Source: Acidobacteriota bacterium (GTDB lineage: Bacteria; Acidobacteriota; Terriglobia; Acidiferrales; UBA7541). Taken from it: a DNA stretch of 53,224 nucleotides. The stretch spans positions 1-53,224 of the forward strand of contig QHYI01000156.1 of the NCBI GenBank assembly GCA_003223245.1, read 5' to 3'. The notes below the pieces were generated by a model. That model was not told the origin of the DNA. It saw nothing but the letters and a program-made list of their open reading frames with translations, and made no database searches. Both the position numbers and the translations under genes were made by a program. Numbering within the stretch: the first letter of the stretch is position 1; every line of letters begins with the position of its first letter. This document shows positions 30,523-31,970 of the stretch, in pieces.

Positions 30523-30855
30523 TCAAGTTGCTTTAAGAGCGCGGGCCATGGCGGCGGAAATGCGCGCCCAGAGATCGGTTTCCTGTTTGAGCTGTCGGCG
30601 GCCGGCGGCGGTGAGACGGTAGAACTTCGCGCGACGGTTGTTTTCGGATTCGCCCCAGGTGGACGTGAGCCAGCCGGCTTCCTCCATGCGGTGAAGGGCG
30701 GGAAAGAGTGAGCCCGGCTTGACGACAAAGGTGTTCGAGGTGACCTGCGCGATGCGGTTGGAGATTCCTAGGCCGTGCATTGGCTGGAGCGCAAGAACTT
30801 TAAGGATGAGCACATCCAGGGTGCCCTGGAGGAGATTGGTGTTGGAAGGCGACAT
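30523..30855 (-). CDS. PadR-family transcriptional regulator
   Basis: The 110-residue protein is a typical small PadR winged-helix protein: LLQGTLDVLILKVLALQPMH, GLGISNRIAQVTSNTFVVKP, GSLFPALHRMEEAGWL, and a Trp-Gly-Glu wing (STWGESENNRRAKFYRLTAA). The C-terminal helix (QLKQETDLWARISAAMARAL) forms the dimer. It is transcribed immediately before the ADOP permease gene, with about 26 bp between them. The promoter region just upstream holds two copies of a CTATAG-N5-C(T/C)ATAG site, the likely operator. It should repress its own operon and release it on a signal such as a toxic compound. Confidence 0.93.
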   Translation of the reverse strand: MSPSNTNLLQGTLDVLILKVLALQPMHGLGISNRIAQVTSNTFVVKPGSLFPALHRMEEAGWLTSTWGESENNRRAKFYRLTAAGRRQLKQETDLWARISAAMARALKAT

Positions 30856-30865
30856 TTGTCCTGTC

Positions 30866-30905
30866 CTATAGAGATTCCATAGGAGTTGCTATAGAAACTC
30901 TATAG
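30866..30905. promoter_or_regulatory. Duplicated PadR-type operator
   Basis: CTATAG-AGATT-CCATAG (30866-30882) and CTATAG-AAACT-CTATAG (30889-30905) are two inverted-repeat sites, 23 bp apart and therefore on about the same face of the DNA. They lie directly upstream of the padR start (30855). Confidence 0.75.
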
Positions 30906-31190
30906 GAGAGAAATGGAAAAAGCAAGATCCGAGCGGAGCGGGTTGACCGGACTAGATTTCAGCGGTGCAGCCTCCCTTGGTAAGCCACAACGGCGTAAAC
31001 GGCGGCCGATGGCCTTGAGAAGGGCCCCCGTCACTCGGGCGTCCGAGACTCCTTGTACTGCCAGAAGCAGATTGCATAATCCAAACGTCTTCGAGGCGCT
31101 CCGAAGGTTTTACTTTCCACTTTTACGCTCTTATCGTCTTCCACCCTCTTACTGGTACTCTTCTACCGTCTTAGTCTTGAGGAGTTCACC

Positions 31191-31970
31191 ATGCCACAAG
31201 CGACAGACTATCCGCGGTTCGATTTAACCGGAGAAATCGCCTTGGTGACCGGCGCCGCTCGCGGCCTGGGACGCGCCATTTCCCTCGCGCTGGCTCACGC
31301 CGGCGCGGATATCGCCCTCGGCTTGCGCGACGTGAACGCCAATGCGGACCTCCCCGCCGAAATCCTCAAACTGGGCCGGCGCGTGCTGCCCTTGCAGATG
31401 GACATGAGCCACATGCCGCAGATTTTTCGCGCCATCGACGATACCGTGAAAGAATTCGGTCGCATCGACATTCTCGTGAACAACGCCGGAATAGCCCCGG
31501 AGAATCCCGCCGAGAAGGTCCGCGAAGAAGATTTCGACGCCACCCTCGCCGTCAATCTGAAAGGCACGTTTTTCGCCAGCCAAGCCGCGGGCCGCGTGAT
31601 GATCAAGCAGAAGAAAGGCGCTATCATCAACATGAGCTCGCAGGCGGGATTCGCTGCACTTCCCACCGAATCGGTTTACTGCATGACCAAAGCCGGCATC
31701 GCTCATTTGACGAAATGCCTGGCTGTCGAATGGGGCAAACATGGAATCCGCGTGAACGCCGTCGCCCCCACTTTTATTCGCACGCCAGGCACGGAAGAGT
31801 ATCTCTCCGACCTGCGCCATCTGACCGACACCATTGACCGCATCGCCGCCCTCCACCGCATCGGCGAGCCCATGGAAGTGGCTGGCGCCGTGGTCTTTCT
31901 CGCCTCGTCCGCAGCCTCGCTGATCACCGGCGAAACGCTTCTCATCGACGGCGGCTGGACCGCCCGTTAG
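31191..31970 (+). CDS. Short-chain dehydrogenase/reductase (SDR)
   Basis: ATG 31191 follows GAGGAG. The classical SDR pattern is complete: NAD(P)-binding TGAARGLG (residues 20-27), NNAG (97-100), catalytic Ser in INMSS (about 149-150), and YCMTK with Tyr163 and Lys167. The VNAVAPTFIRTPG and LLIDGG segments that end these enzymes are present. Length 259 is standard. It interconverts an alcohol and a carbonyl group, likely on a sugar or acyl substrate; RAIDD-like and GLRDVN residues at the adenine-binding strand do not settle NAD versus NADP. It is a stand-alone cytoplasmic enzyme with its own promoter region. Confidence 0.92.
   Translation: MPQATDYPRFDLTGEIALVTGAARGLGRAISLALAHAGADIALGLRDVNANADLPAEILKLGRRVLPLQMDMSHMPQIFRAIDDTVKEFGRIDILVNNAGIAPENPAEKVREEDFDATLAVNLKGTFFASQAAGRVMIKQKKGAIINMSSQAGFAALPTESVYCMTKAGIAHLTKCLAVEWGKHGIRVNAVAPTFIRTPGTEEYLSDLRHLTDTIDRIAALHRIGEPMEVAGAVVFLASSAASLITGETLLIDGGWTAR

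Follow-up and report, generated by a model that had tools for sequence, protein, structure and literature searches.

The padR gene of the window, by which we mean the whole stretch of 53,224 nucleotides of acidobacterial DNA that was analysed, is preceded by two inverted repeats in tandem. We interpret this tandem dyad, with a probability of roughly 0.87, as the autorepression operator of the adjacent PadR, written in one of the spellings of a co-diverged family of tandem 7-N5-7 operators. Its two CTATAG repeats are very probably docking sites at which the small repressor would shut off its own gene and the adjacent membrane-protein gene. The PadR fold of the encoded protein is not in doubt from its sequence, which scores 76.6 bits against PF03551 (cut-off 27). 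Residues 7–102 align with residues 7–102 of the LmrR chain, and a tryptophan at column 96, the position of the a4 tryptophan of the LmrR multidrug pocket, is found in the class consensuses of PadR. An ADOP gene lies downstream on the same strand at 238 of the 247 padR genes examined, and at 81 of 85 in the window subfamily.

The original prediction had placed two copies of an inverted site, 23 bp apart, directly upstream of padR, and they are found there: CTATAG-N5-CCATAG at 30866–30882 and CTATAG-N5-CTATAG at 30889–30905, 23 bp from start to start. Allowing one mismatch, the window contains four strand-matches, all at the padR promoter; none of 100 shuffles reached four (mean 0.06). The pattern CTATRG-N5-CYATAG occurs in the 6.3-Mb genome at the two window sites only, and its mirrored control has no match. 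Each arm extends by one further base per side, giving 19-bp dyads of the type CCTATNG-N5-CNATAGG, to which the proximal dyad (operator 2) is an exact match and the distal dyad (operator 1) a match with one mismatch. They end 9 bp and 32 bp, respectively, before the padR ATG (30855). The proximal dyad lies within the ribosome-binding region of padR, a placement absent from the original prediction. With a pair of 7-N5-7 dyads so spelled, set at one of the distances that define the class (23–24 or 31–37 bp), the window promoter belongs to the CCTATNG class described below.

The promoter is conserved in the orthologues L049 and L078 (96% protein identity to the window PadR), which do not differ from one another over the aligned promoter and therefore count as one. 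Candidate promoter elements overlap or flank the dyads (Table 1), and two further relatives, L079 and L083, have promoters reading TTGCAT-N15-TATAGA. A consensus sigma-70 scan of the window promoter gave no match. That the site differs from the ATGT-N8-ACAT operator of other PadR proteins is borne out: both dyads read CCTATRG-N5-CTATAG, and visual inspection of the 81-bp conserved block showed no ATGT/ACAT pair.

Table 1. Features of the padR-ADOP locus, in window coordinates.
Feature	Position	Strand	Remarks
padR, 110 aa, TIGR03433 padR_acidobact, a3 helix GSLFPALHRME	30523..30855	(-)	140 bits, cut-off 101.8
ADOP permease, TIGR03434	27857..30526	(-)	870.7 bits, cut-off 622.3; overlaps padR end; start codon tentative
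Operator 1 (distal), CCTATAG-AGTTT-CTATAGC in padR sense	30888..30906	(-)	conserved in orthologues L049, L078
Operator 2 (proximal), CCTATGG-AATCT-CTATAGG in padR sense	30865..30883	(-)	ends 9 bp before ATG
Candidate -10 hexamer TATAGA inside operator 1	30899..30904	(-)	inferred; also in L049, L078, L079, L083
Candidate -35 hexamer TTGCTT	30920..30925	(-)	inferred; 15 nt from TATAGA, a short spacer; identical in L049, L078
Probable Shine-Dalgarno region (AGGACAGGA)	30858..30867	(-)	read from sequence; overlaps operator 2 end
Conserved promoter block	30856..30936	(-)	75/81 bases identical in L049/L078; alignment poor beyond

Within its own genome, the spelling lies mostly upstream of padR genes. 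CCTATNG-N5-CNATAGG with up to one mismatch occurs at 12 places, compared with 6 for the mirrored control; nine lie upstream of six padR genes and three inside long open frames, and the three exact places are all at the window padR and its C223 paralogue. The window PadR has its spelling class in common with the paralogues C187 and C223 (70% and 65% identical), so cross-talk among these three is plausible. The genome contains 40 PF03551 matches (39 above the cut-off) and about 67 ADOP genes, and rows of ADOPs stand on several contigs (C115, C170, C211 and C80) of genome G000; many ADOPs therefore lack an immediately preceding padR of their own. When the 110 bp before each of the 40 PadR matches were scored for tandem dyads, only 15 beat all 60 shuffles, with a spelling that varies from gene to gene. 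A whole-genome search with the fixed tandem pattern CCTNNNG-N5-CNNNAGG-N14-(same) at up to three mismatches was not selective enough: it found 46 places where the mirrored control gave 93, although its three best matches (0, 1 and 2 mismatches) are padR promoters. One truncated padR frame (73 aa; locus L039, contig C218 of G000) still has upstream tandem dyads and is perhaps a decaying paralogue.

Relatives were collected by a protein search of 61 genomes and a GTDB contig scan (best 80 of 371 loci). The window subfamily, defined by the PadR helix GSLFP(A/C)LHRM, comprised 83 promoters, or 70 once proteins at least 90% identical had been removed. Dyads resembling CCTATTGACATTCTATAGG are visible by eye in these promoters, usually in two copies. 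De novo EM on the 70 non-redundant promoters, run without a palindrome constraint, returned TCCTATTGACAtTCTATAgGA at 29.5 bits, compared with 8.3 bits for shuffled sequences. In summary form, the motif reads TCCTATTGACATTCTATAGGA and is present in 34 of 35 held-out promoters, which scored above the 99th percentile of shuffles with a matrix trained on the other half; these held-out promoters are related to those used for training. The refuting test chosen beforehand, motif discovery at padR-ADOP operons of relatives, thus recovers a CTATAG-like site. The subfamily matrix also matches 58 of 166 promoters of other subfamilies, partly through the shared TTGACA and CC/GG. Record titles with subfamily promoters include Gemmatimonadetes/Gemmatimonadales and Chthoniobacterales/Verrucomicrobia; most are MAGs, in which mis-binning is possible.

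The double dyad extends well beyond this subfamily. Starting from 305 loci, 261 padR genes had at least 90 bp upstream, and 254 were kept after removal of seven with a profile score below 130. A scan of all distances from 15 to 59 bp in this redundant set found 13 tandem pairs at 23–24 bp, 95 at 31–36 bp and none at 25–30 bp; a few occur at 39–47 bp, and shuffles gave near zero. Among 77 proteins less than 85% identical, for which only chosen distances were scanned, 14 pairs fell at 22–24 bp and 60 at 31–37 bp. One turn of B-DNA takes about 10–11 bp. Since the two preferred spacings differ by about this much, the sequences suggest that two PadR dimers sit on one face of the helix. A four-half-site score of at least 30 was reached by 148 of 254 promoters and by none of the 254 shuffled ones; at a score of at least 28, the counts were 156 and 3. 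A further 82 of the 254 score below 26. Some of these low scorers belong to the window subfamily and have a wrongly assigned start codon or a second dyad that is weak, but a large group with the helix GSLYPALHRLE mostly has other arrangements, such as the nested CTCCTTGACAATCTACACAT...ATGTGTAGAACGTCTAGGAG. The double 7-N5-7 dyad is thus common, not universal. In L008, L248–L256 and similar members of the GSLYPALHRLE group, the nested inverted repeat has outer arms CTCCTTG/CTAGGAG and inner arms CTACAYAT/ATGTGTAG, which by sequence is closer to the ATGT-type PadR site.

Arm spelling goes with PadR subfamily. In the 156 promoters with a score of at least 28, CCTATnG accompanies the helix GSLFPALHRME (n = 65), and six sister subfamilies carry tandem 7-N5-7 dyads with other arms: CTCCTAr with GSLYPALYRLE (n = 21), CCTCyTG with GSLF.A(F/I)(Q/R)RL (n = 19), CCTGTTG with GTLYPALLRLE (n = 13), nnTGTAG with GSLYPALHRLE (n = 8), CCTGTGG with GTIYASLVRL (n = 5) and CCTTTGG with GTVY(A/T)SLLRL (n = 5); small classes together account for 20. 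At least seven arm spellings rule out a single spelling for all ADOP-linked PadRs. The proposal that CTATAG is the site of the ADOP-linked subgroup is therefore upheld in that the site is operator-like and recovered by motif discovery, but it applies to one subfamily only (helix GSLFPALHRME). As a marker of the whole ADOP-linked group CTATAG fails: elsewhere in the group, in part within the same genome, the double architecture comes with arms spelled differently, and certain members have sites outside that architecture.

For 80 further padR loci, rules from helix to spelling were fixed before the upstream regions were inspected. A rule applied to 44 and none to 36, and the spelling was as predicted in 40 of the 44 (two of the four misses were ties), compared with 8.7 on average and at most 16 for shuffled predictions. 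Only 8 of the 44 proteins were less than 85% identical to a training protein (7 of these were right), so the predictions mostly probe known subfamilies. When the a3 columns are left out of the tree, spelling needs 11 changes, compared with 69.5 for shuffled labels. Operators have most likely co-diverged with their repressors across the PadR paralogues.

Which residues read the spelling is answered differently by the three approaches used. In sliding-window partial correlation over 105 non-redundant proteins, a2 (residues 29–38; 0.47) and the wing (about 66–80; up to 0.39) lead, with values of about -0.07 to 0.06 where the window lies over a3; a simple code in which the a3 helix is the sole reader of the arms was rejected. 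Mutual information ranks H55 of a3 first (0.74), followed by I99 in a4 (0.73), a column not expected to contact DNA. Independent pairs on the tree without a3, which number only five for TATnG and so have no statistical power, gave H55 1.0 concordant and 3.9 without difference, and F51 0.0 concordant. Because H55 is found with TATnG (57) and TGTAG (7/8), and L55 with TATnG (8), TGTTG and TTTGG, residue 55 alone is not decisive. A natural H55R variant (L310 and L311, helix GSLFPALRRM) has half-sites that mostly read CCNGTNG and not CCTATNG; arm position 4 is G in 3/4 and 4/4 of them, respectively. This represents one event, and G at this position is already present in about 22% of right arms of H55 promoters in the EM matrix; the variant is a lead only.

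The dyads are placed consistently with respect to the promoter. In all 53 subfamily promoters with a spacing of at least 30 bp, TTGAC lies in operator 1 and never in operator 2; across all classes, the counts are 115 of 132 and 3. Of 64 subfamily promoters, 51 have operator 2 ending 6–11 bp ahead of the start codon (34 at 8–9 bp), and 50 have AGGA or GGAG at the right end of this operator. One palindrome therefore lies over the -35 box, and its partner over the ribosome site and the start region. Short spacing occurs in 11 subfamily cases, including the window; TTGAC lies in operator 1 in five of the 11, the window not among them. From these computed features, we infer binding, repression, co-occupancy of one DNA face and effector release, as follows. 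The tandem dyad would be the operator of the adjacent PadR, with one dimer per 19-bp palindrome. Two dimers, about two helical turns apart, would cover the padR promoter core and the start region, blocking RNA polymerase, and polymerase would be excluded in the long- and the short-spacing layout alike. The padR-ADOP operon would thereby repress itself until an effector releases the repressor. The effector would presumably bind at the a4 dimer interface with W96, whose conservation and alignment with W96 of LmrR suggest release by a small molecule.

Part of the conservation is surely explained by promoter and ribosome-binding elements (TTGACA, TATA and AGGAG), as the regular positions of TTGAC and AGGA/GGAG in the subfamily indicate. 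That these elements explain all of it, leaving the palindrome incidental, is nevertheless very improbable. Promoter elements need no complementarity, yet arm positions 1, 3, 4 and 7 are complementary in 85–100% of long-spacing subfamily dyads at both operators, whereas at arm position 6 of operator 1, which must be T for TTGACA, complementarity drops to 4%. The arms also differ in their middle bases from one PadR subfamily to another, which -35 boxes and ribosome sites do not, and an incidental palindrome would not be expected in two copies at a turn-related spacing.

A leader RNA hairpin acting by Shine-Dalgarno sequestration or attenuation would have a basis in operator 2, for which a hairpin spanning the ribosome site is predicted (-7.4 kcal/mol for operator 2 by itself; -26.7 kcal/mol for the last 60 nt plus ATG). 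But operator 1, carrying the -35 box in the long-spacing promoters, would be untranscribed from that promoter and still has the same palindrome, and the spacing follows the DNA turn; we regard this explanation as extremely unlikely. Equally remote is binding by another regulator, either of padR-ADOP or of the divergent SDR gene (31191–31970), which lies 285 bp away and shares the intergenic region with padR. Spelling tracks the PadR subfamily, in the blind predictions as on the tree, and in orthologue L049 the conserved block reaches only some 81 bp upstream of the ATG, with a second padR upstream and not an SDR gene. That second padR is divergent and of another subfamily, and the shared block gives the impression of a padR-ADOP unit that travels as a cassette. 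In the window, one terminator-like hairpin with a T-rich tail lies before the SDR gene at 31087–31108 (shuffle average 0.5).

Autorepression by the adjacent PadR also agrees with characterized members of the family. cdPadR1 of Clostridioides difficile, a PadR-s2 protein, is an autoregulator that binds its own promoter at two non-ATGT inverted repeats (PMC5050560), so that non-ATGT tandem sites and PadR autoregulation already have precedent; the predicted binding at the window would resemble it in both respects. In contrast to its TACT-N11/12-AGTA sites, with an AT-rich core, loose spacing and about 200 motif matches in the genome (PMC5050560), the window subfamily has rigid N5 dyads at a fixed turn-related spacing, with the -35 box and Shine-Dalgarno sequence inside the operators, and the window spelling has no intergenic match elsewhere in its own genome. 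LmrR of Lactococcus lactis, likewise a repressor at its own promoter, shares the PadR-s2 fold and aligns its W96 with that of the window PadR without a gap; multiple dimers are reported on its promoter, and its targets are its own gene and the operon of a transporter, both of which it represses (PMC5428041, PMC4534193). Unlike the window PadR, it uses ATGT-N8/10-ACAT operators and controls an ATP-driven exporter, not an ADOP (PMC5428041, PMC4534193). bcPadR1 and bcPadR2 are small PadR-s2 proteins with the same three conserved regions as the window PadR; from their conserved a3 motif, EGT(L/I)YPxLxRLE, a common ATGT/ACAT operator was inferred (PMC3506622). Further PadR literature includes PMC4235314, PMC6624303 and PMC3174227. 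In the open-licence PMC literature, none of the matches listed deals with operators of TIGR03433 or ADOP-linked PadRs.

The diversity of arm spellings among the ADOP-linked paralogues argues against one common operator deduced from the conserved PadR-s2 helix (PMC3506622). We give even odds to a broader proposal: ADOP-linked PadRs may have radiated as near-orthogonal autorepressors, in which repressor and tandem-operator specificity changed together at each duplication and left a readable protein–DNA code (a2, a3 and wing against arm positions 3–6), while the architecture of two 19-bp palindromes on one DNA face, with built-in -35 box and Shine-Dalgarno sequence, stayed fixed. A predictable operator for each paralogue would make each padR-ADOP unit assayable and would supply ready-made orthogonal repressor–operator pairs. 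It would also provide a natural data set on how duplicated winged-helix repressors avoid cross-talk.
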